Notes under the pieces: generated by a model
The model's input: only the letters and a program-made list of their open reading frames with translations
Told to the model about the DNA's origin: nothing
Databases searched by the model: none
Shown: one piece after another, positions 3,513-13,194 of the stretch
Numbering within the stretch: position 1 is the stretch's first letter
Layout: every line of letters begins with the position of its first letter
Made by a program: the position numbers and the translations under genes
Assembly: GCA_002368865.1 (NCBI GenBank)
Contig: DFDT01000206.1
Span: 1 to 13,194 of the forward strand
Origin: Lachnospiraceae bacterium UBA3821
GTDB lineage: Bacteria > Bacillota > Clostridia > Lachnospirales > Lachnospiraceae
Length of the DNA stretch: 13,194 nucleotides
Direction of reading: 5' to 3'

Positions 3513-6041
3513 ATGAAAAAAGTTTTGATAAAGATCATTGTCTTTCTGGTGACTTTTGTGGTGGCGTTAATCGTTGCCGGCAAAGTGATGAACCAGGGGC
3601 ATGACAATATGACGATGGAGATGGCTGCGGCTACGCTGCCTGTCATGCATGTGGAGCGCGACGGCGTGGCCTACAATGAATTGCATGGTTATGTCGTACC
3701 CATGGATGTAGCGTCCATGCGGGATGTGGTGACCGTGCTGGGGGAAAATCGGGAATTTTCCGTGCAGGTCGACACCTACGGCAGGAATGTGACGGGAATG
3801 TCATTGGAAGTGCGCAGTATCGACGGAACCCGCCTGATCGAGAATACACCGGTCACGGGGCTGCAGACGGAAAAGAAAGCGTTTTCCGTGGTTGTGAGCC
3901 TGAAAGACCTGATCGAGAAAGACCGGGAATATTCTGTGAAGCTGACGCTGACACTGGATGATGACAGGCAGGTTTCCTATTACACCCGCGCCATATGGAG
4001 CGAGTCGCTGCATATGGAGGAAAAACTGGATTTTGTCAGGGATTTTCATGAGAGGCTGTATGATAAAGAAGCGGCGAGAGAGCTGACAAGATATCTGGAA
4101 ACCAACGCCCAGCTGGAGGACAATACCTCCTTTCACAAGGTTAACATTCACAGCAGTTTTAAGCAGATCACCTGGGGAGATCTGGGGGTAAGGGAAGAAA
4201 CGGAGCCCGTGATCCTGATGACGGAGATCGGGGAGCAGACAGCTTCCTTTTTGGTGAATTTTCTGGTTTCCACAGAGTCGTCTCAGACCAGGACCTATTA
4301 TCGGGTGGTGGAGCATTACCGGATCCGATATACCTCGGACCGGATCTATCTTTTGAATTATGAGCGCACCATGACGCAGATCCCGGATGTGGAGAAGATG
4401 TATGCCAATGATAAGATCCTGCTGGGGATCACGGACAGCAACATTCCGCTGGCAGAAAGTGAGGACGGCAGTACGGTGGCCTTTGAAGTGGACGGATCCC
4501 TGTACAGCTACAACTCGGTGAGCAATAAGCTGGCGGTGGTATTCAGTTTTTACGATCAGGCTTACACGGACAACCGTGCCATGTATGACCGGCATGGAAT
4601 CAAGATCCTGAATGTGGATGAGGGCGGTAATATCTGTTTTGCGGTTTACGGTTATATGAACAGAGGGCGGCATGAAGGGGAAGTCGGGATTCAGGTTTAT
4701 ACTTACAACAGTACTCTGAACACGATAGAGGAAAATGTTTATATCCCTTATCACAAAGAGTATGCCCTGCTAAAGCCGCAGATGGAGCGGCTCCTGTATC
4801 TGAACCGGGAGCAGGTGCTTTATCTGATGCTGGAGGATGTGATCTATTCCATCAATCTGGAAGAAAAGACCTACTATCCGCTGGCTACGATCACCCAGAT
4901 AGACACTGCCCAGATTTCGGAAAGTAACTGGATCGTCGTCTGGCAGGAGGGAGAGGATATCTATCACAGCCGCAAGCTGAATATCCGAAATCTGAATAAT
5001 GATGTCCAGCAGGAGATCCGTGTGGGTGCGGACGACGCGGTGAAGCCCCTGGGATTTATGGGGGAGGATATTATTTACGGCGTTGCCAGAGAGGAAGATA
5101 TTTACAGGGAGAGTTCCGGACGAATCCTTTTTCCCATGTACAAAGTATGCATCTGTGACGCCCAGGGGAATCTGCTGAAGGAATATCAGCCGGAGGGAGT
5201 ATATGTCACGGAGTGCAATGTGGAGAGTAATCAGATCACGCTTTCCCGGGTGAAAAAGCAGGAAAACGGCAATTATGTCGAGACCACGGCGGATCAGATC
5301 ATGAACAGTACGAAAGAGGAGACCGGGAAGTTTGTGATCGTGGCTCCCGGGATCGACATTTATGAGCGCTATGTGCAGATCCAGACCAGACACAATATTG
5401 ACAGTAAGACGATCCAGATCCTGACTCCGAAAGAGGTGGTGTTCGAGGGCGGACGAGAGCTTGTGCTGGAGGCGGAAAGCGATGCCACCAGATACTATGT
5501 TTATGGGGCGTACGGTGTGGAGAACCTGTTCAGCTCTCCGGCGAAGGCGGTGCTGCTGGCAAACGAAGTGTCCGGGGTGGTGGTAGATCAGAACGGTCAC
5601 CGCATCTGGCGGAAGGGAAACCGTGTGGCACGCAACCAGATCATGGCAATCCGGGAGGATAAGACGACGGAGGAAAAAGGCAGTCTTGCAGTCTGCCTCG
5701 ATACCGTGTTAAAATATGAGGGAGTTGTGCGGAACACACAGGCTTTGCTGGAACAGGGACAGACGGTGCAGGATATTCTGCAGGCGAATCTGGAGAACGT
5801 GCAGGTGCTGGATCTGGCGGGCTGTGAATTGGATGCCATGCTCTATTATGTAAATCAGGATCTGCCGGTGCTGGCGCTTCTGTCGGATGGCGAGGCAGTT
5901 CTGATCACCGGATTTAATGAGTACAATGTGGTGGTTATGGATCCGAAGAAGGGAACCTTAGCCAAGATGGGCATGAACGATGCCACGGATTGGCTGAAAA
6001 AGAACGGGAACAATTTTGTGACCTATATCCGCACAGAATAA
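3513..6041 (+). CDS. Membrane-anchored extracytoplasmic protein with a C-terminal degenerate C39-like domain
   Basis: 842 residues. Residues 5-24 form one strongly hydrophobic helix after MKK, so the rest is predicted outside the membrane; I see no lipobox and no signal peptidase site I would trust. Residues about 50-310 are mixed alpha/beta. About 310-640 is rich in short strands (Tyr, Val, Ile alternating with turns such as DGSLYSYN and DEGGNICFAVYG), consistent with a beta-propeller-like fold; this is inference. The last 115 residues match the layout of C39-like peptidases: a Cys in CLDTVLKYEG (C728), a helical middle, PVLALL, then GEAVLITGF and VVMDP (D810). In active members the GEAVLITGF position reads GHxVVVTG, so the catalytic His is Glu794 here, and the domain is probably a binding module. 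The ATG at 3513 has a weak GGAG ten bases upstream. It lies in an operon with the methyltransferase before it and the small helical protein after it. Function unknown. Confidence 0.88.
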   Translation: MKKVLIKIIVFLVTFVVALIVAGKVMNQGHDNMTMEMAAATLPVMHVERDGVAYNELHGYVVPMDVASMRDVVTVLGENREFSVQVDTYGRNVTGMSLEVRSIDGTRLIENTPVTGLQTEKKAFSVVVSLKDLIEKDREYSVKLTLTLDDDRQVSYYTRAIWSESLHMEEKLDFVRDFHERLYDKEAARELTRYLETNAQLEDNTSFHKVNIHSSFKQITWGDLGVREETEPVILMTEIGEQTASFLVNFLVSTESSQTRTYYRVVEHYRIRYTSDRIYLLNYERTMTQIPDVEKMYANDKILLGITDSNIPLAESEDGSTVAFEVDGSLYSYNSVSNKLAVVFSFYDQAYTDNRAMYDRHGIKILNVDEGGNICFAVYGYMNRGRHEGEVGIQVYTYNSTLNTIEENVYIPYHKEYALLKPQMERLLYLNREQVLYLMLEDVIYSINLEEKTYYPLATITQIDTAQISESNWIVVWQEGEDIYHSRKLNIRNLNNDVQQEIRVGADDAVKPLGFMGEDIIYGVAREEDIYRESSGRILFPMYKVCICDAQGNLLKEYQPEGVYVTECNVESNQITLSRVKKQENGNYVETTADQIMNSTKEETGKFVIVAPGIDIYERYVQIQTRHNIDSKTIQILTPKEVVFEGGRELVLEAESDATRYYVYGAYGVENLFSSPAKAVLLANEVSGVVVDQNGHRIWRKGNRVARNQIMAIREDKTTEEKGSLAVCLDTVLKYEGVVRNTQALLEQGQTVQDILQANLENVQVLDLAGCELDAMLYYVNQDLPVLALLSDGEAVLITGFNEYNVVVMDPKKGTLAKMGMNDATDWLKKNGNNFVTYIRTE

Positions 6042-6783: not shown

Positions 6784-7299
6784 ATGAAACAGAATGAAAA
6801 GAGAAAAAATAATCTGGATGAGAGACAGGAGCAGATATTGCTCCAGGTGGAGCACCGCGGCTGCTGGCTGGCCTTTTGGGGACTGTTGATCGCGCTGATG
6901 GTGCAGTTTGTCATGGGAAGAGATTTTACTTATATGGCAGGAGAGTGGATCGTGTTCATGGTGCTTGCGGTGTATCTGGTGGGTGCCTGTGCCAAAAGGG
7001 GAATTTGGGACAGACATTTTAAGCCGGATGGAAAGACGAATTTGATTTTTTCCGCAGTCTCTGCCATAGTGTTCGGCGGTGTGATGTTTGCTAAGTGTTA
7101 TCGAAATTTTCCGGATAAACCGATAGGCAGTATTGCATCCGGTGTATTCACGACAGGGTTTGTGTTTGTGATCGTTTTTGCCACATTGAGTGTTATGGCA
7201 GGGATCGTCACCAAAAGGCAGAAGAATCTGGATGCCGAACCGCTGGATGTCGAAGCGGATGCGGATAATCTGACTGATGCAAATGACCTGAGACGATAA
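6784..7299 (+). CDS. Four-helix membrane protein (possibly DUF6773), partner of the Xre regulator
   Basis: 171 residues from this start. Hydrophobic segments lie, from the start at 6784, at about 27-44, 53-70, 87-103 and 118-141, giving four predicted membrane helices. A conserved-looking entry sequence NNLDERQEQILLQVEHRG precedes the first, and the tail is acidic and cytosolic. The LDERQEQ...EHRGCWLAFWGLL pattern recalls the family I know as DUF6773; I cannot confirm this. The frame is open from ATG 6754, which overlaps the Xre stop. I prefer ATG 6784 because AGGAG at 6772-6776 is seven bases before it, whereas 6754 has only a poor site. In-frame ATGs at 6778 and 6781 are also possible. Pairing of a tiny Xre protein with a small membrane protein is common in Firmicutes, but the signal they handle is unknown. 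Confidence 0.86.
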   Translation: MKQNEKRKNNLDERQEQILLQVEHRGCWLAFWGLLIALMVQFVMGRDFTYMAGEWIVFMVLAVYLVGACAKRGIWDRHFKPDGKTNLIFSAVSAIVFGGVMFAKCYRNFPDKPIGSIASGVFTTGFVFVIVFATLSVMAGIVTKRQKNLDAEPLDVEADADNLTDANDLRR

Positions 7300-7306
7300 A
7301 ATAAAA

Positions 7307-7346
7307 TTTAATGAAAAACATTAAAAAGTTATTTACAAACATGTTT
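7307..7346. promoter_or_regulatory. Two candidate operators at the DUF2975-xre promoter
   Basis: TTTAATG at 7307-7313 and CATTAAA at 7319-7325 form a perfect 7-bp inverted repeat just upstream of the -35. AAACATGTTT at 7337-7346 is a perfect 10-bp palindrome within the -35/-10 spacer, a classical position for repression. Binding by the Xre protein of this operon is inferred. Confidence 0.45.
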
Positions 7347-7360
7347 ACCCATGATATAGT
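7332..7360 (+). promoter_or_regulatory. Promoter of the DUF2975-like / Xre operon
   Basis: TTTACA at 7332-7337, exactly 17 bp, then TATAGT at 7355-7360; both boxes match five of six consensus bases. Predicted start near 7367, about 79 nt before the gene. Confidence 0.8.
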
Positions 7361-7445
7361 AGCCTCACAAGACATTTAACGATAAACATAAAAAAATTAA
7401 TGTAAAATGTGGCGCGGGAACAACGCAAAGAAAGTGAGGCAAATT

Positions 7446-8159
7446 ATGGAAAAACAGGCAGCAATCAGGAAGATCAATCAAATCGGTAAAGCGGGGTATA
7501 TCATCTCCGTCATTGTGCAGGTGCTTGTTATCATAGCTCTGGTGGGCGCACTGATCGGAGGGGCTGTGATGGCGGCATTTCCCAAAGAGGCGATCACCAT
7601 GACAATGAGCGGATCAATGGACGTGGACCTGAACCTGAATCGGCTCGGGGGCGCACATCTGACGGATACACAGCTGCAAAACCTTCAGAGCGAACTGCAA
7701 AGCGGAAGTGCGTCTTTCTCCATAGATGACAGGGACTACCTGGTGACCGGCGTCGAAACCACACAGGATGGCGTGCGGGTTTCGGCGGAGACTTCCAATA
7801 TTACGGCAGATTTAAAAACAATCCTTTGGCCGACGGTTGTTTCCGGAGTTGTCTATATCGTGGTAGTATTGATCACGATCCATTTTATCAAGCGTCTGTG
7901 CAAAGAGATCAAGAACTGCGAGAGCCCTTTCAGTGAAGGTGTGATCCGAAAGATCAAGCAGCTTGCCTATGCACTGATCCCCTGGGTTTTTATCTCCGGC
8001 ATCACAGAAAGTATTATGAGCAGCGGAATGACCGGAAGAACGAGTGTGGATCTGAATATTGATCTGGGCAGGGTAATGGTGGTGTTGGTGGTTCTGGCGC
8101 TTGCCTATATCTTCCAATATGGTGCGGTGCTCCAGCAAGAGTCTGACGAGACTTTGTGA
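7446..8159 (+). CDS. DUF2975-family membrane protein (YoaS-like)
   Basis: 237 residues with four predicted membrane helices at about 18-44, 127-149, 172-191 and 207-226. The C-terminal half carries what I recognise as the DUF2975 pattern: CESPFSEGVIRKIKQLAYALI (158-178), a middle helix, and a last helix ending in an IFQYGAVLQQESDETL tail. Between helices 1 and 2 there is an exterior loop of about 80 residues with alternating polar strands, which could be a small sensor domain. The ATG at 7446 has GTGAGG six bases upstream; an ATG at 7407 in frame has no ribosome binding site. It is followed after 12 bp by an Xre gene, the same order as the yoaS-yozG pair of Bacillus subtilis. Its biochemical role is unknown in the family. 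Confidence 0.9.
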   Translation: MEKQAAIRKINQIGKAGYIISVIVQVLVIIALVGALIGGAVMAAFPKEAITMTMSGSMDVDLNLNRLGGAHLTDTQLQNLQSELQSGSASFSIDDRDYLVTGVETTQDGVRVSAETSNITADLKTILWPTVVSGVVYIVVVLITIHFIKRLCKEIKNCESPFSEGVIRKIKQLAYALIPWVFISGITESIMSSGMTGRTSVDLNIDLGRVMVVLVVLALAYIFQYGAVLQQESDETL

Positions 8160-8171
8160 GGAGGTGCGCAT

Positions 8172-8390
8172 ATGGGAAAAATAATTCTTCGGTTGGACAG
8201 AGTGATGGCGGACCGTAAGATGAGTCTGAATGAACTCTCTGAAAAGGTAGGCGTGTCCAATGTGAACCTGTCCAAGATCAAAACCGGTAAGATCAGTGCC
8301 ATACGGTTCTCCACGCTGGAAGCAATCTGTGACGTGTTGGACTGCCAGCCGGGAGATATTTTGGAATATGATAAAAACGCCTTGAAATAA
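8172..8390 (+). CDS. Short Xre-family regulator (YozG-like)
   Basis: 72 residues consisting of a single Cro/C1-type domain. The helix-turn-helix lies at about 18-39 (SLNELSEKVGVSNVNLSKIK), then TGKISAIRFSTLEAICDVLDCQPGDILEY, the usual ending of the YozG/HTH_26 subgroup. GAGGAGG at 8158-8164 is seven bases before the ATG and overlaps the stop of the DUF2975-like gene, so the two are translated from one message. It probably represses the promoter at 7332-7360. Sequence differs clearly from the Xre protein at 6545, so the two modules are not recent duplicates. Confidence 0.94.
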   Translation: MGKIILRLDRVMADRKMSLNELSEKVGVSNVNLSKIKTGKISAIRFSTLEAICDVLDCQPGDILEYDKNALK

Positions 8391-8543: not shown

Positions 8544-8963
8544 ATGGAAAAGCAGATCATGGACAAGCGCGAGCAACGCATCATGGAGAAAATCTGGGAG
8601 CAGACGGACGCAAAGAATTCTGTGAGCGTTACGGAGCTGGAGGAGTTGTTTGCCGGTGAGAAGATGAGCAAGGTGTCGATCTTCAAAGCGGTACAATCTC
8701 TGTTGAAGAAGGGCTATATCGGTGTGGAAGGACTGGAACTGTCAGGGACGGTTTATGCGCGGAAATATGAGGCGCAGATCACCAGAGAGCAGTATGCGGC
8801 TATTGTACTGGCAAACGGCGGAATCCGCACATCATCTCTGGGAAGTCTTGTACTTGCTATGATCGGCAATGACAGAGATGACATGCCAAATGAAACGAAG
8901 GACGAGGAGTTGATCGCAGAGCTGGAAAAGGTGATCGAGCGCATTAGAAACAGAGAGGTATAA
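8544..8963 (+). CDS. BlaI/MecI/CopY-family transcriptional repressor
   Basis: 139 residues. A winged helix-turn-helix spans about residues 8-75: QRIMEKIWEQ, then VSVTELEELFA, the recognition-helix segment MSKVSIFKAVQSLLKKGYI and the wing YARKYEAQITREQYA. The rest (80-139) is helical and should form the dimer interface. In this family a dimeric repressor is removed when a partner M56 membrane protease is activated by an outside signal. The gene for such a protease starts 5 bp downstream, which supports the call. AAAGGAG at 8527-8533 is ten bases before the ATG. I cannot identify the cleavage site used in BlaI. Length is close to the usual 120-130. Confidence 0.9.
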   Translation: MEKQIMDKREQRIMEKIWEQTDAKNSVSVTELEELFAGEKMSKVSIFKAVQSLLKKGYIGVEGLELSGTVYARKYEAQITREQYAAIVLANGGIRTSSLGSLVLAMIGNDRDDMPNETKDEELIAELEKVIERIRNREV

Positions 8964-8968
8964 GCGAT

Positions 8969-10207
8969 ATGCCCCAGGAAAATTGCTATGGCATTTTTAT
9001 GTTTTTCATCAAGCTTATGAGTGGAAACTCACGCATCAGTGTATGGTCGATCGTTTCCTGTTTATTTTGGGGCAGTCTTCTGATTCTGTTTTATTCTCTC
9101 CTGTGGCGGAGCAAAAAATTTAAAGAAGTTGTAGGTGTGAGGGGGATGCTTGGTCTGTATGTCCTTTGTATCTTCCAACTGCTTATACCGGTCAGCGCCA
9201 CCTGGCAGAAGAATATTACGCTTCCCAATAAGCTGAATCTGTTTCTTGGAGGATTTCATCGTACGATCATCACCTATGATTCCGTGGAGATCTCTATCGG
9301 GGAATTGTTCCTGATTATCTGGATGATAGGGATTGGCGTGAAACTCATCTCCCTTTTGGTGGGATATGCCAGAAATAATCGGATATTAAGGAAACTCCCG
9401 CACAGACAGATCTCGCGGGAAGCGTTTTCCAAACAAATGGGGGTGGAAGTGCCAAGACAGATTGCGGTTTACCGCTGCACAGGGATTACAGTGCCTTTTA
9501 GCTTTGGGATATTCTGTAAACGTATCCTGATCCCGGATCAGCTTTATACAGCGCAGGAGTTGAAGTATATTATTCTGCATGAGAGGATTCACCTGGAAAA
9601 AGGAGATCATTATCTCGCCCTTTTGACAGAGCTGCTCTGTGTGATCTACTGGTGGAATCCCTGCGTATATCTTTTGAAAAAAGAAGTGGAGCAGAGCCTG
9701 GAGATGCGTTGTGACAGCGAGGTGACCCGCGGCATGGAGAGAGATGAGGTCGCGGATTATATGACAACGCTTCTCACCATTTTTCGTGGACGCAGCAGAA
9801 GAGGTGTCTGGCGCGGGCTGAGTTTGTTGGGAACAGGAAACGGGCTGCGGTCGGAGTTGAGACATCGTTTTACCATGTTGGAAAATAATCCGGGACAGAA
9901 GACATACGCATTGGGTGTACGGCTTGCGGTGGCGGGCTTTGCATTTCTGATGGTATTGCTATCCAACAGTATTGTCATAGCGCCTTTTTTTCTGCCGGAT
10001 CTGGATGACCTGGCTATAGGCGGAAAGGGTCCCCAAAACGGATTCAACATGGATGAGGTTTATTTTGCCACGCCGGATTCCTATATTTATCAGGGAGAAG
10101 ACGGAAGCTATTATATGGAGAGCTCTGACGGTACCAAGCAGATCCGCGATGAGGTGGCGGAGGTATTGATAGAGGAAGGCGTAAATTTCAAAGGGCAGAT
10201 TCAGTAA
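8969..10207 (+). CDS. M56-family membrane metalloprotease (BlaR1-like, no penicillin-binding sensor)
   Basis: 412 residues. Predicted membrane helices at about 25-45, 58-76, 108-132 and 318-340. The zinc protease signature is intact: HERIH (204-208) in LKYIILHERIHLEKGDH, with E245 in SLEMRCDSEV as the likely third ligand. BlaR1 and MecR1 are about 585-600 residues and end in a beta-lactam-binding domain; here only about 70 residues follow the last helix (SYIYQGEDGSYYMESSDG and beyond), so beta-lactams are not the expected signal. By analogy it cleaves, or triggers cleavage of, the BlaI-like repressor encoded just upstream. GAGAGG at 8953-8958 within the end of that gene serves as ribosome binding site. 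The last codons Ile-Gln-stop are also the first half-site of the LytTR-type operator. No terminator is visible before the next operon. Confidence 0.9.
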   Translation: MPQENCYGIFMFFIKLMSGNSRISVWSIVSCLFWGSLLILFYSLLWRSKKFKEVVGVRGMLGLYVLCIFQLLIPVSATWQKNITLPNKLNLFLGGFHRTIITYDSVEISIGELFLIIWMIGIGVKLISLLVGYARNNRILRKLPHRQISREAFSKQMGVEVPRQIAVYRCTGITVPFSFGIFCKRILIPDQLYTAQELKYIILHERIHLEKGDHYLALLTELLCVIYWWNPCVYLLKKEVEQSLEMRCDSEVTRGMERDEVADYMTTLLTIFRGRSRRGVWRGLSLLGTGNGLRSELRHRFTMLENNPGQKTYALGVRLAVAGFAFLMVLLSNSIVIAPFFLPDLDDLAIGGKGPQNGFNMDEVYFATPDSYIYQGEDGSYYMESSDGTKQIRDEVAEVLIEEGVNFKGQIQ

Positions 10208-10228
10208 AAAAATACTATCATTCAGTAA
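10199..10228 (+). promoter_or_regulatory. LytTR-type operator upstream of the response regulator (copy A)
   Basis: ATTCAGTAA occurs at 10199-10207 and again at 10220-10228: 9 bp, a 12-bp gap, 21-bp period. LytTR regulators (AgrA, ComE, VirR) are known to bind two 9-bp direct repeats about 12 bp apart. Read as TCAGTAAAA, each half-site fits seven of nine positions of the published consensus [TA][AC][CA]GTTN[AG][TG]. The regulator encoded next is a LytTR protein. The first half-site overlaps the stop codon of the M56 gene. Confidence 0.72.
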
Positions 10229-10253
10229 AAAATCTGATTTCCCAAATTAGTTC

Positions 10254-10262
10254 TGATATACT
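10254..10262 (+). promoter_or_regulatory. Extended -10 promoter element, copy A
   Basis: TGATATACT is an extended -10 (TGn plus TATACT) inside the 15-nt block TTCTGATATACTTCT that recurs at 13144. No -35 is present at the expected place (CTGATT at 10234), as at activator-dependent promoters. Predicted start near 10269. Confidence 0.68.
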
Positions 10263-10315
10263 TCTGATATGACTATTTTGTCGACATGGGTATGGGAAAT
10301 GCAGGAGGAAAGACG

Positions 10316-11053
10316 ATGCGAAAAATACTGATATTGGAGGATCGCCCGGAGGAGCAGGAGGAAATTGCCGCTCTCATCAATACGATCGAGAGCCCTACAG
10401 AAGTGATCCGATGCGTGGATACGAAAGAGGCTTATGTATGCGCATTGGAGGGGAATATTGACCTTTTCATCATTGATGTGATCTTAAAACCGGATCAGCA
10501 GGAGGATACATCGGGGCTGAAGTTTGTGGAGAGCATTCGGGGTGTTACGCGATATGAATTTACACCGGTGATTATCCTTACCTGTCTGGAGGATCTGAAA
10601 TCATACAGCTATGAAAAGCTTCACTGCTACGCATACATTGAAAAACCGTTCGTGACGGAACACTTGCGCAAGACGATCGTGGAGTGCCTTCGCTCGCCCA
10701 GACTGCCGGAGCGGGAGCGCACACTCTACTATCGGAAAGACGGCGCAATCGTGGTGGTGCAGCGCGAGGATGTGGTTTATGCCAAGAGTATACGGCATGC
10801 ACTTCATATTTTTACACGGAAAAAAGACAATATTGCAATTCCGTATCTGACGGTGAAACAATTTCTCATGGATGCGGACAGTCATGATTTTATTCAATGC
10901 AGCCGCAATACGGTCATCAACCGGAAATTTGTGGTTTCCGTTGATCTGCCGCGGAGAAGAGTCTGCTTACAGGGGGAGGAGAATCCTGTGGAGATAGGCG
11001 GAACCTATGTGGCGGCGATCAGGGAAACCTTCGGGAGCAGAGAAAATGAGTAA
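10316..11053 (+). CDS. LytTR-family response regulator
   Basis: 245 residues. The receiver domain (about 2-125) has the acidic pair E8-D9, the phospho-acceptor D54 in LFIIDVIL, T89 and K110 (EKPF): all key residues are present. The LytTR DNA-binding domain (about 137-240) shows the typical VVYAKSIRHALHIFT strand region and FIQCSRNTVINRKFV. Phosphorylated proteins of this kind activate transcription from direct-repeat sites. The start is the ATG at 10316, seven bases after a perfect AGGAGG (10303-10308), giving a leader of about 47 nt from the predicted promoter. An ATG at 10286 in frame has no such site. The 3' end overlaps the kinase gene by 8 bases. Presence of its own operator type upstream suggests positive autoregulation. 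Confidence 0.95.
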   Translation: MRKILILEDRPEEQEEIAALINTIESPTEVIRCVDTKEAYVCALEGNIDLFIIDVILKPDQQEDTSGLKFVESIRGVTRYEFTPVIILTCLEDLKSYSYEKLHCYAYIEKPFVTEHLRKTIVECLRSPRLPERERTLYYRKDGAIVVVQREDVVYAKSIRHALHIFTRKKDNIAIPYLTVKQFLMDADSHDFIQCSRNTVINRKFVVSVDLPRRRVCLQGEENPVEIGGTYVAAIRETFGSRENE

Positions 11054-13100
11054 ACAGCGAAAGGCAGATACCAATCCGCAATCCGACAGATTGACGCAGG
11101 AGGCAAAGGAACAATACGAGCAGTTGGTGCGGGAAGTGCGCATGCGTCAGCACGAATTGGGGAATCAGCTGAGCGCGGCGAAAACGCTTTCTTCCGGGGA
11201 GGCATCGCAGTATCTGGAGGAGCTGAACAGGGATCAGCGTTACAATGTGCTTTTGCTGTGCGGAGATCCGCTGCTTGCGGGACTGCTTTATCAGAAATGT
11301 AAGGAGGCTGAGGCTCAGGGAATCCGTGTGGAGAGTCATATATCTGCAAGGCTTGAAGCCTATGCGCTTCCACAGCATGAGTTGATCGCCATAGTGGGCG
11401 GTCTGCTGGATAATGCCATTGATGCGGAATTGTCCCGGCCGGCGGACGAGCGGAGCATACGTATCCTGGTGGATGCGGAGGACGGACAGTATCGGATCAC
11501 TGTGGCCAATCGTTTTCCCTATGTTCCCTATGAGACTATGCACGGCTGGTTCCGTGAGGGACATACCAGCAAGGGTACGGGCAGAGGATTGGGACTCGCA
11601 CATACCCGGGAGATCTGCGCGGACGGCAGGGCGGATATCGCCTACGGCAACCAGGAGACGGACGGGGACAACGAAGTATTCTTCATGCTGTATCTGAAAC
11701 CGGCGCAGGAAACAGAGCCTGCCGGGGAGTCAGTGCGGCAGGATATAAGGGAAGAATACGCACTTGAGAAGACGGGGAGATTGACAGGATTTGGAATGTA
11801 TGCAGGCATAGCAGCGCTTTTGGCGGTTGCGGGCCTGCTTATTTTTGTTATCATGCCGTCGAAAGATCAAGAACGATCACTGGATTTACCGCAGGACGAT
11901 ACGCAGGCTGGGACACAGGTGTCCGTATCCAGACCTTTTACCCTGTATGATGTGGGCGAGGCACCGGAAGGCGGACAGGAGATCGAGCGGCCGGATGAAA
12001 GCTTCTGGCATCCGTATAAGCTGTTCCCGGAATCCGTGGGGCTGGCAAAGATCCGGTATGAAACCTATGATGCGCAAGGGAATCATATTGCCAGTGACAG
12101 TTACATTCCGCGCAAGTACGACAGCAGCAAGGACAGGGGAATTCTGGTGAGCCTGGGAAGTGATTACGCGGACTTTAAAGGTTATTGCAGACGTTTGCAG
12201 GAATATTGGACTTATGATGAAAAAGGACAGGCAGTGTCTTACCGGTCCTACAAGCAATACGGGGCCGATCTGGAGCCCCAGTTGTATGAAGAAATAGATT
12301 ATGAGCCGCAGGCGGACAACCCAGGCAATGCGGACGGCATACCGCAGGAGGTGCTTGCTGCGCAGAAAAATGAGGACATGACGTGTGATTGGGACGCAGA
12401 GCTTAGGCGTGCCCATATCACAGAGACTGACTATTATGGTGAAGAGCACCAATTTGTTTACGACTATGATGCGCAGGGGCGCAAAACCAGAGGATATTCC
12501 ATACAGGATAACGTGGCACAGTTGATCTATGAGGCGTATTTCGATGACAAAGGGCGCGTCAAGGAGATCGATGACAATACGCCGCGCCTGATCAAAGAAC
12601 GTCTGTCAGAGGAATATCGGGAAAATTTCTATGACGAGGCGCTCACGCAGCCGCTGCGTCCGCGACAGTCGGAAAACAGGTATCAATTTTATTTTTACAA
12701 CACTGCGGAGGACTCTCCGGCATATATGTTGAATATTGATGCGCAGGAAGGCGACGGCGAGCTGTATGTATATCAGTATGATGCGGCAGGGCAGCTTTCG
12801 GTGACCTATCTCTATTATATTCAGGATGCCTATTTGGGAGAATTTTCTCTGGACACACCGGAGGGAGGATGCTTATACTTCTCTGATAGCCATGAGGAAT
12901 CCTATACCTATGAGAAAACAGGACTGAAATGGTTGGAGGATCAATATTTTGTGACGGAGATCGCCATGGAGGATGCTTCGGGCAGACTGGCATGGACCTT
13001 CTCCTTTGACAAAGGGCAACCTGTGCTGCGCAAAGAGGGAGATTCTGTTGTGGATTGGACCGAGGTGATCGATCAAAATATCCTGTCTGAAATTCAGTAA
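11046..13100 (+). CDS. AgrC/HPK10-like histidine kinase with C-terminal YD-repeat ectodomain (reversed topology)
   Basis: 684 residues in an unusual order. Residues 15-50 form a coiled-coil dimerisation segment with the phospho-acceptor H36 in RQHELGNQLSAAK (the H-E-x-x-N form of AgrC-type kinases). The GHKL ATPase follows: N-box LIAIVGGLLDNAIDA (N123) and G-box HTSKGTGRGLGLAHT (173-187). A single hydrophobic helix at about 249-269 comes next. The remaining 414 residues (271-684) are Tyr/Asp-rich and should lie outside. They carry repeats of YD/RHS type: YETYDAQGNHI (338), YWTYDEKGQAV (387), FVYDYDAQGRKT (470), YEAYFDDKGRV (495), YVYQYDAAGQLS (574), with a weaker one at 640. Usual kinases of this class have the membrane sensor before the kinase core. 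The ATG at 11046 overlaps the regulator stop and has GGGAG eight bases upstream. The gene ends Ile-Gln-stop within the second operator copy. The signal is unknown; it may be a cell wall or surface component. Confidence 0.88.
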   Translation: MSKQRKADTNPQSDRLTQEAKEQYEQLVREVRMRQHELGNQLSAAKTLSSGEASQYLEELNRDQRYNVLLLCGDPLLAGLLYQKCKEAEAQGIRVESHISARLEAYALPQHELIAIVGGLLDNAIDAELSRPADERSIRILVDAEDGQYRITVANRFPYVPYETMHGWFREGHTSKGTGRGLGLAHTREICADGRADIAYGNQETDGDNEVFFMLYLKPAQETEPAGESVRQDIREEYALEKTGRLTGFGMYAGIAALLAVAGLLIFVIMPSKDQERSLDLPQDDTQAGTQVSVSRPFTLYDVGEAPEGGQEIERPDESFWHPYKLFPESVGLAKIRYETYDAQGNHIASDSYIPRKYDSSKDRGILVSLGSDYADFKGYCRRLQEYWTYDEKGQAVSYRSYKQYGADLEPQLYEEIDYEPQADNPGNADGIPQEVLAAQKNEDMTCDWDAELRRAHITETDYYGEEHQFVYDYDAQGRKTRGYSIQDNVAQLIYEAYFDDKGRVKEIDDNTPRLIKERLSEEYRENFYDEALTQPLRPRQSENRYQFYFYNTAEDSPAYMLNIDAQEGDGELYVYQYDAAGQLSVTYLYYIQDAYLGEFSLDTPEGGCLYFSDSHEESYTYEKTGLKWLEDQYFVTEIAMEDASGRLAWTFSFDKGQPVLRKEGDSVVDWTEVIDQNILSEIQ

Positions 13101-13121
13101 GAAAATGATGTAATTCAGTAA
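13092..13121 (+). promoter_or_regulatory. LytTR-type operator at the end of the kinase gene (copy B)
   Basis: ATTCAGTAA at 13092-13100 and 13113-13121 repeats the 21-bp period of copy A. The first half-site again is Ile-Gln-stop of the preceding gene. An inverted half-site ACTGAAT follows at 13133-13139 and has no clear counterpart in copy A. Confidence 0.72.
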
Positions 13122-13146
13122 AAAAATTGTATACTGAATCTGTTTC

Positions 13147-13155
13147 TGATATACT
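13147..13155 (+). promoter_or_regulatory. Extended -10 promoter element, copy B
   Basis: TGATATACT within TTCTGATATACTTCT (13144-13158) lies 52 bp from the first operator repeat, exactly as in copy A. Predicted start near 13162, directing transcription out of the window. Confidence 0.66.
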
Positions 13156-13158
13156 TCT

Positions 13159-13194
13159 ATGGAAGTGTTTTTTTATGCATACAAATATTGGGAA
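13159..13194 (+). other. Beginning of an unseen downstream transcription unit
   Basis: Only about 36 bases remain. An ATG at 13175 has no ribosome binding site, and an open frame from ATG 13159 would begin upstream of the predicted transcription start. No gene can be called, but the promoter at 13147-13155 implies one starts just beyond the window. Confidence 0.35.

Follow-up and report, generated by a model that had tools for sequence, protein, structure and literature searches.

The window analysed here (13,194 bp) is an entire contig, C185, of the 70%-complete assembly of Lachnospiraceae bacterium UBA3821 (genome G000). It carries two copies of a promoter-like cassette, one at each end of an operon for a LytTR response regulator and a GHKL histidine kinase. 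Each copy consists of two direct repeats of LytTR type followed by an extended -10 element. Judging from the DNA, we consider it likely that each cassette is an operator-promoter of the LytTR regulator encoded between them, which would activate its own operon and a neighbouring one and would serve to stock immunity proteins. For comparison, 138 genomes of the same genus were used, G000 and its sister genome G083 among them.

Geometry of the Two Cassettes

The motif ATTCAGTAA is present exactly at positions 10199, 10220, 13092 and 13113, and no other exact match was found on either strand of the window; allowing one mismatch gives three further matches. The 15-nt block TTCTGATATACTTCT lies at 10251 and 13144, which are its sole matches in the window with up to three mismatches. 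Cassette 1 (10201-10262) precedes the operon and cassette 2 (13094-13155) follows it. The offsets of 21 and 52 bp are the same in both cassettes, so the original prediction of one arrangement at both ends of the operon was confirmed to the base. Both cassettes have the geometry of LytTR operator-promoters, that is, direct repeats of about 9 bp with a 12-bp spacer. The predicted spacing of 9 + 12 bp also agrees with the 9-12-9 repeats upstream of extended -10 promoters that are described in the available text of PMC6193735. The repeats are placed directly upstream of the predicted promoter, as expected of a LytTR operator-promoter, and the extended -10 follows the proximal repeat at a 23-bp gap in both window copies and at all four G083 sites. 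The coordinates are collected in Table 1.

Table 1. Cassette elements and associated genes in the window.
Feature	Position	Strand	Remarks
Cassette 1, distal LytTR-type repeat TCAGTAAAA	10201..10209	+	includes the M56 stop codon
Cassette 1, proximal repeat TCAGTAAAA	10222..10230	+	12-bp spacer
Cassette 1, -35 hexamer position, CTGATT (poor)	10234..10239	+	3 bp past the repeat, 14 bp ahead of TG; predicted from the sequence
Cassette 1, extended -10 TGATATACT, regulator-kinase operon	10254..10262	+	
Cassette 2, distal repeat TCAGTAAGA	13094..13102	+	contains the kinase stop codon
Cassette 2, proximal repeat TCAGTAAAA	13115..13123	+	
Cassette 2, -35-like TTGTAT	13127..13132	+	14 bp ahead of TG; predicted from the sequence
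Cassette 2, extended -10 TGATATACT, for an off-contig target	13147..13155	+	
Response regulator	10316..11053	+	receiver PF00072 and LytTR PF04397; ATG 10316 picked by eye (longest ORF from 10286)
GHKL histidine kinase	11046..13100	+	HATPase PF02518/PF14501; ATG lies within the 3' end of the regulator gene; start and topology judged by eye
BlaI/MecI-like repressor	8544..8963	+	PF03965 at 21.5 bits, just below the cut-off of 22.6
BlaR1-type M56 peptidase, upstream of cassette 1	8969..10207	+	

The M56 peptidase gene and the kinase gene both terminate on the distal box (ATT CAG TAA), which thus doubles as a stop-codon site. The contig ends 36 bp past the second 15-nt block. Since the window is the whole contig of an incomplete assembly, the target of cassette 2 is invisible in G000.

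The intervening bases had been described as widely different, and this part of the original prediction did not hold. The spacers of the two cassettes are identical at 18 of 34 positions, compared with an average of 11 after shuffling (p about 0.005), and the boxes at 33 of 33. The copies are therefore probably duplicates of one promoter, the boxes of which were then kept; a common origin by duplication is likely. The flanks show no similarity, with 4-8 matches per block of 16-20. This raises the question of whether the boxes are alike merely by recent copying of promoter DNA, as a duplicated or mobile segment, and not by a shared regulator. The spacer similarity above chance would be explained in this way, as would the identical codon at which the gene upstream of each copy ends and the break in similarity between G000 and G083 near cassettes (window 13175 and L093:5200). 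The invariant boxes beside diverged spacers and dissimilar flanks argue in the other direction. The same boxes also turn up, again with spacers that have diverged, at two unlinked sites of G083 and at the loci of regulator orthologues. Copying accounts for the origin of the cassettes but not for their retention, and as the explanation of their identity it appears quite improbable.

Cassettes and Gene Arrays in the Sister Genome

Regulator matches at E<=1e-20 were found in 11 of the 138 genomes, the window's own included, and the closest was that of G083 (97% identical). Contig C23 of G083 retains both cassettes with unchanged spacing; changes affect 2/66 box positions and 9/68 spacer positions. 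One box change gives TCAGTTAAA, which agrees at 8 of 9 positions with the sequence that we take to be the LytTR consensus, while TCAGTAAAA agrees at 7 of 9. In both genomes a BlaI-like/M56 gene pair immediately precedes cassette 1.

Cassette 2 of G083 is followed by a same-strand gene array (oriented locus L071). The second target next door, supposed in the original prediction, is thus visible in the sister genome, whereas that of the window lies off the contig. The first gene of the array starts 33 nt past the -10 and codes for a membrane-type protein of 229 aa that matched nothing in Pfam or NCBIfam. It is followed by genes for a Sel1-repeat protein and an unmatched 233-aa protein, an ATPase-like gene that is split between two frames (by eye), a gene for an unmatched 173-aa protein and, at the end of the stretch read, one for a 783-aa DUF4241-Imm33-DUF1266 polyimmunity-like protein. 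The similarity between the window and G083 stops at window position 13175, 20 bp past the -10. With just 19 bp of the window left, this divergence is a hint, not proof, of different cargo. No cassette was found at the loci of six partial relatives of the 229-aa protein (32-40% over the C-terminal part).

Two extra cassettes were found on contig C59 of G083, 6.8 kb apart, each heading a same-strand gene group. One precedes DUF4261, UPF0167, DUF4303 and zinc-ribbon membrane-type genes, and the other a 138-aa gene without Pfam match. Both are inside an immunity-like stretch of ~7.95 kb (L093:5201-13150) that is missing at the same place in G000. G000 matches C59 (90.7% over 10.4 kb) until about 25 bp before the first C59 cassette, where the similarity breaks at L093:5200. 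Past the break, the G000 match skips 7.95 kb to a 70-bp match, and longer similarity begins at ~L093:16618, at a shared SUKH gene; the SUKH genes of C59 lie farther along, beyond the stretch absent from G000. An integration site for the 7.95-kb stretch was considered and rejected, as the junction shows a mere 4-bp overlap of two matches.

SUKH and Imm33 are immunity families, and strain-variable polyimmunity loci have been described (PMC3482391). The names DUF4241, DUF1266, UPF0167 and DUF4261 are absent from the available text of that paper, and no occurrence of DUF4303 was listed for it. The immunity reading of these other DUFs consequently rests on the company that they keep. The G083 targets are reminiscent of the polyimmunity loci of that text and may belong with them: they are tandem same-strand genes of several families, including SUKH and Imm33, with content that varies between relatives (the 7.95-kb stretch is absent in G000) and no toxin domain in the part of the array genes that was scanned. 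Unlike the loci as described there, they have a two-component-type promoter cassette in front.

Pattern Searches in 138 Genomes

The composite pattern of two repeats and an extended -10, with at most one mismatch, was found only at the two window sites and the two orthologous G083 sites. A chance origin of the composite is excluded. Allowing up to three mismatches adds two G083 sites and one match each in G132, G106, G091 and G100. The G106 site was dropped, having no evident link. The G132 site was retained on the grounds that this genome has a regulator orthologue; it was built into the profile described below and hence offers no independent test. The repeat pair without the -10, at three mismatches, gave 132 + 122 matches in the own genome and 104 + 109 in the reversed control. 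With 254 matches against 213, only near-exact or composite matches count. The genome scan suggested earlier as a check was informative for the composite at <=1 mismatch, which is specific to G000 and G083, and hardly so for the repeat pair alone. A scan with a generic LytTR consensus gave mostly noise, yet it picked the later G108 and G122 sites.

A profile, R1, was built from 7 of 14 aligned sites and run over the 138 genomes with stricter filters. Among the matches listed, the training sites came first, followed by G132:C1:56832 at an orthologue locus (E 5.6e-8). The next were G122:C25, in an orthologue-bearing genome but at another locus, where the following gene reads like a metalloprotease, and G065:C92 at an orthologue locus (1.5e-3). 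From 2e-3 on, the matches listed form a dense field of regulator-less genomes, among which G108 (5.6e-3) and G087 (0.03) again have their top site at an orthologue locus. Three of the eight unused orthologue-bearing genomes (G065, G108 and G087) thus have their best R1 site, among the matches listed, at the orthologue locus. Separately, a cassette-like site was seen at L094:7218 (G132:C29:21217), ahead of genes for ATP-grasp, AMP-binding and carrier proteins, in a genome with an agr-type orthologue. It is possible that this cluster is quorum-controlled and makes a small molecule or peptide.

Distant Regulator Orthologues

Nine distant orthologue loci of the regulator (39-48% identity) were inspected. 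Eight are agr-type by eye, with an XRE-like gene, the regulator, an AgrC-like kinase and agrB on the opposite strand; a Pfam scan of one of them, G087, confirmed AgrB. The ninth locus (G071) has neither kinase nor agrB beside the regulator. Eight of the nine loci continue with a second XRE gene, the exception being G132. Repeat pairs with the 21-bp period lie around agrB and the second XRE gene in G132, G108, G122, G065 and G016, and weakly in G087. As the distant-locus sites sit in the agrB/XRE region, G000 and G083 are the only genomes in which the putative autoregulatory copy was seen. Upstream of the orthologues themselves, eight of the nine regions are free of any repeat pair at 20-22 bp, and G010 has an unrelated AT-rich pair at 22 bp.

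The spacing of these sites was scored with a matrix made from the eight repeats of the four G000 and G083:C23 cassettes, over hand-defined agrB/XRE regions of the nine distant loci. The 21-bp spacing was the best of 31 (111.4; the others had a mean of 80.6, sd 7.6 and a maximum of 99.2). This score was reached by 0/200 column-permuted matrices (maximum 109.7) and 0/200 random-region sets (maximum 87.6). Because the hand-defined regions were drawn after an earlier scan, the test is partly post hoc. The motif is conserved with the lineage of the regulator. Repeat pairs at 21 bp were also noted on the agrB-facing strand at oriented L074:4779, L075:11384 and L076:10954, and they are candidates for agrB promoters in the agr-type loci of Lachnospiraceae.

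The constant company of the BlaI-like/M56 pair in G000 and G083 suggests another owner for the repeats, namely the adjacent repressor and peptidase. BlaI/MecI operators are palindromic, while the cassette repeats run head-to-tail at 21 bp. Moreover, tblastn gave no BlaI or M56 match in the nine distant orthologue loci, and none was seen by eye at the C59 cassettes of G083. The BlaI operator was rejected on geometry and context, and we regard it as very improbable.

Several observations weigh against the cassettes being operators of the regulator encoded between them. The original prediction had named absence of the cassette upstream of orthologous regulators as counter-evidence, and literally this was found: the 400 bp upstream of the regulator contain no cassette in any of the nine distant orthologues, although both cassettes are conserved in G083. 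The scan that first revealed the sites at the orthologue loci has, at the threshold used, a chance rate of ~1 match per 20 kb and gave other scattered matches too. When whole loci are scored, the 21-bp spacing ranks 1st to 14th of 21 depending on the locus and is best in one of nine; the top 21-bp pair falls in the regulator region in five loci and elsewhere in four. In some loci (G065), the sites after the XRE gene do not show a persuasive -10 or a clear gene downstream, and the G087 pair is weak. Among the R1 matches listed, five of the eight unused orthologue genomes (G122, G071, G010, G121 and G016) lack a best site at the locus, and the matches after G132 are weak (E about 1e-3), with regulator-less genomes nearly as high. 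On the target side, the 229-aa protein of G083 was not found in the 70%-complete G000 assembly. At the place of the 7.95-kb stretch, G000 has other genes, including an AAA_14/DUF4143 ATPase, and no cassette was found in 34 kb of the corresponding G000 contig. To these may be added the locus of another LytTR protein (L098), which reaches 16.6 by the matrix alone, equal to the orthologue loci.

The last point leads to the possibility that the cassettes are LytTR operators, but for other or several LytTR regulators of the cell. Such proteins are at hand: there are seven LytTR matches in G083 and three in G000, and one is encoded on C59 together with the two extra cassettes. The L098 site, however, lies in apparent coding sequence and lacks a -10. 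The composite scan gave 0/8 hits at the loci of other LytTR matches in G000 and G083, whereas the orthologue loci do carry the motif. Strong R1 sites (E<1e-6), among the matches listed, occur only in G000, G083 and G132, all of which have the regulator, although most of these sites built R1. Control by other LytTR proteins is thus an unlikely account, and we continue with the regulator of the flanked operon.

The Regulator and the Kinase

The operon encodes a LytTR protein, as originally stated: PF04397 was found in the regulator next to the receiver domain PF00072. At E<1, its LytTR part matched among the solved structures only S. aureus AgrA chains (E about 0.04, weak). It is 39-48% identical to the regulators of the nine distant loci, eight of which have AgrC-like kinase and AgrB-like genes (by eye). 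By its domains, the weak structural match and this identity to agr-type loci, it is an AgrA-type LytTR response regulator. The core of the cassette box resembles ACAGTTAAG, which we take to be the AgrA box. No AgrB was found among eight window proteins scanned, nor by eye in the ORFs of the G083 locus; no search was aimed at small AgrD-like ORFs.

AgrC has a polytopic N-terminal sensor, whereas the window kinase is without one and has a large C-terminal domain after the catalytic part. Its HATPase domain covers residues 111-206 of 683 and is followed by one hydrophobic segment (by eye) and ~400 C-terminal residues, presumably extracellular. An H-box-like RMRQHELGNQL and an N-box-like LLDNAIDAE were recognised by eye. 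The C-terminal part contains YD-like motifs and matches RHS_repeat at 16.8 bits; this is under the Pfam cut-off of 22 bits, so the term 'Rhs-like' is a lead only. The predicted model of the kinase is of low confidence (mean pLDDT 56, pTM 0.37) and shows mostly strands in the C-terminal part.

Relatives of the kinase were sought in a database of 5.8 billion proteins, of which the best 7,997 word-sharing candidates were scored. Among these candidates there were 12 matches, eight close (P0001-P0008) and four weak (E 1e-6 to 2e-5, 17-29% of the query). P0008 has the kinase part in common (74% over 31% of the query) and a different C-terminal part; it looks as though sensors get exchanged. The full-length kinase was also sought in 397 genomes of the family. 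Matches were obtained in 60, and among those listed, all but the window cover the kinase part only. A genome-contig search returned one relative, the G083-type record JAFUZJ010000053.1 (metagenome-assembled genome Lachnospiraceae bacterium RGIG4964, roe deer rumen).

Comparison with Known Systems and Proposed Mechanism

In the available text on S. mutans, the 9-bp repeats of LytTR promoters are mostly separated by 12 bp and lie 4-11 bp (usually 10) before the -35, and several of these promoters have an extended -10. HdrR binds the repeats of its own promoter in gel shifts, and positive autoregulation was shown for HdrRM (PMC6193735). SilA is described with two 10-bp repeats and an 11-bp spacer (PMC2766830). 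The window cassettes resemble the HdrRM, BrsRM and SilA promoters, as these sources present them, in having direct repeats with a 21-bp period just upstream of the -35 and an extended -10, often found there too, and in the combination of autoregulation, here predicted, with target promoters. They differ from these descriptions in the repeat, TCAGTWAAA instead of mostly ACCNCTTNN, and in the gap from repeat to -35, which by our assignment is 3-4 bp and so no wider than the narrowest in the reported range of 4-11. The LRS regulators in these sources are paired with a membrane inhibitor, while the window regulator has a receiver domain and a GHKL kinase as its partner. The published promoter layout, together with the TTGTAT-14-TGATATACT of cassette 2 and the poor -35 of cassette 1, points to activator-dependent promoters.

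In the proposed mechanism, the activated regulator would bind the two direct repeats beside a weak -35 and recruit polymerase to the extended -10. At cassette 1 this would give positive feedback on the regulator-kinase operon, and at cassette 2 it would switch on the adjoining operon; the hidden target of the window may be of the same kind as those in G083. The signal would be sensed by the C-terminal, presumably outward-facing domain of the kinase, and more immunity proteins would be stocked in response. Three cassette operons of G083 hold polyimmunity-like genes, which makes raising the immunity-protein stock the likely job of the system.

We interpret the cassettes as AgrA-type LytTR operators that would give positive autoregulation and also activate a neighbour; switches of this kind are known, and what is unusual here is the kinase and the targets. 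They are a real, well-predicted regulatory feature of known kind, and the interest comes from the polyimmunity-like arrays in G083 and the non-agr input side. A bolder scenario, which we offer tentatively and hold to be doubtful, is a derived agr lineage that has lost its peptide signal. Its kinase, having gained a C-terminal sensor that faces outward and is Rhs-like (YD-repeat-like), would act as an attack alarm for toxin-delivery or envelope signals, switching on itself and exchangeable polyimmunity islands through a portable cassette that travels with the cargo.

On the switching-on of orphan immunity gene arrays, our literature search gave no paper joining polyimmunity with two-component control and a promoter. 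If a two-component system has its promoter cassette, defined and searchable as it is, at immunity arrays, their activation would become directly testable. The system would also be a case of an agr-type regulator with a conserved box but exchanged signal input and targets.

Other Genes in the Window

A ~1.1-kb segment at 7266-8371, coding for a membrane protein of the DUF2975 family and a small protein of XRE type, is missing from G083. The gene at 3513-6041 codes for an 842-aa protein that matched neither Pfam (E<=0.001) nor NCBIfam (E<=0.01), and it sits ~2 kb downstream of genes that read, by eye, as ATP synthase subunits.

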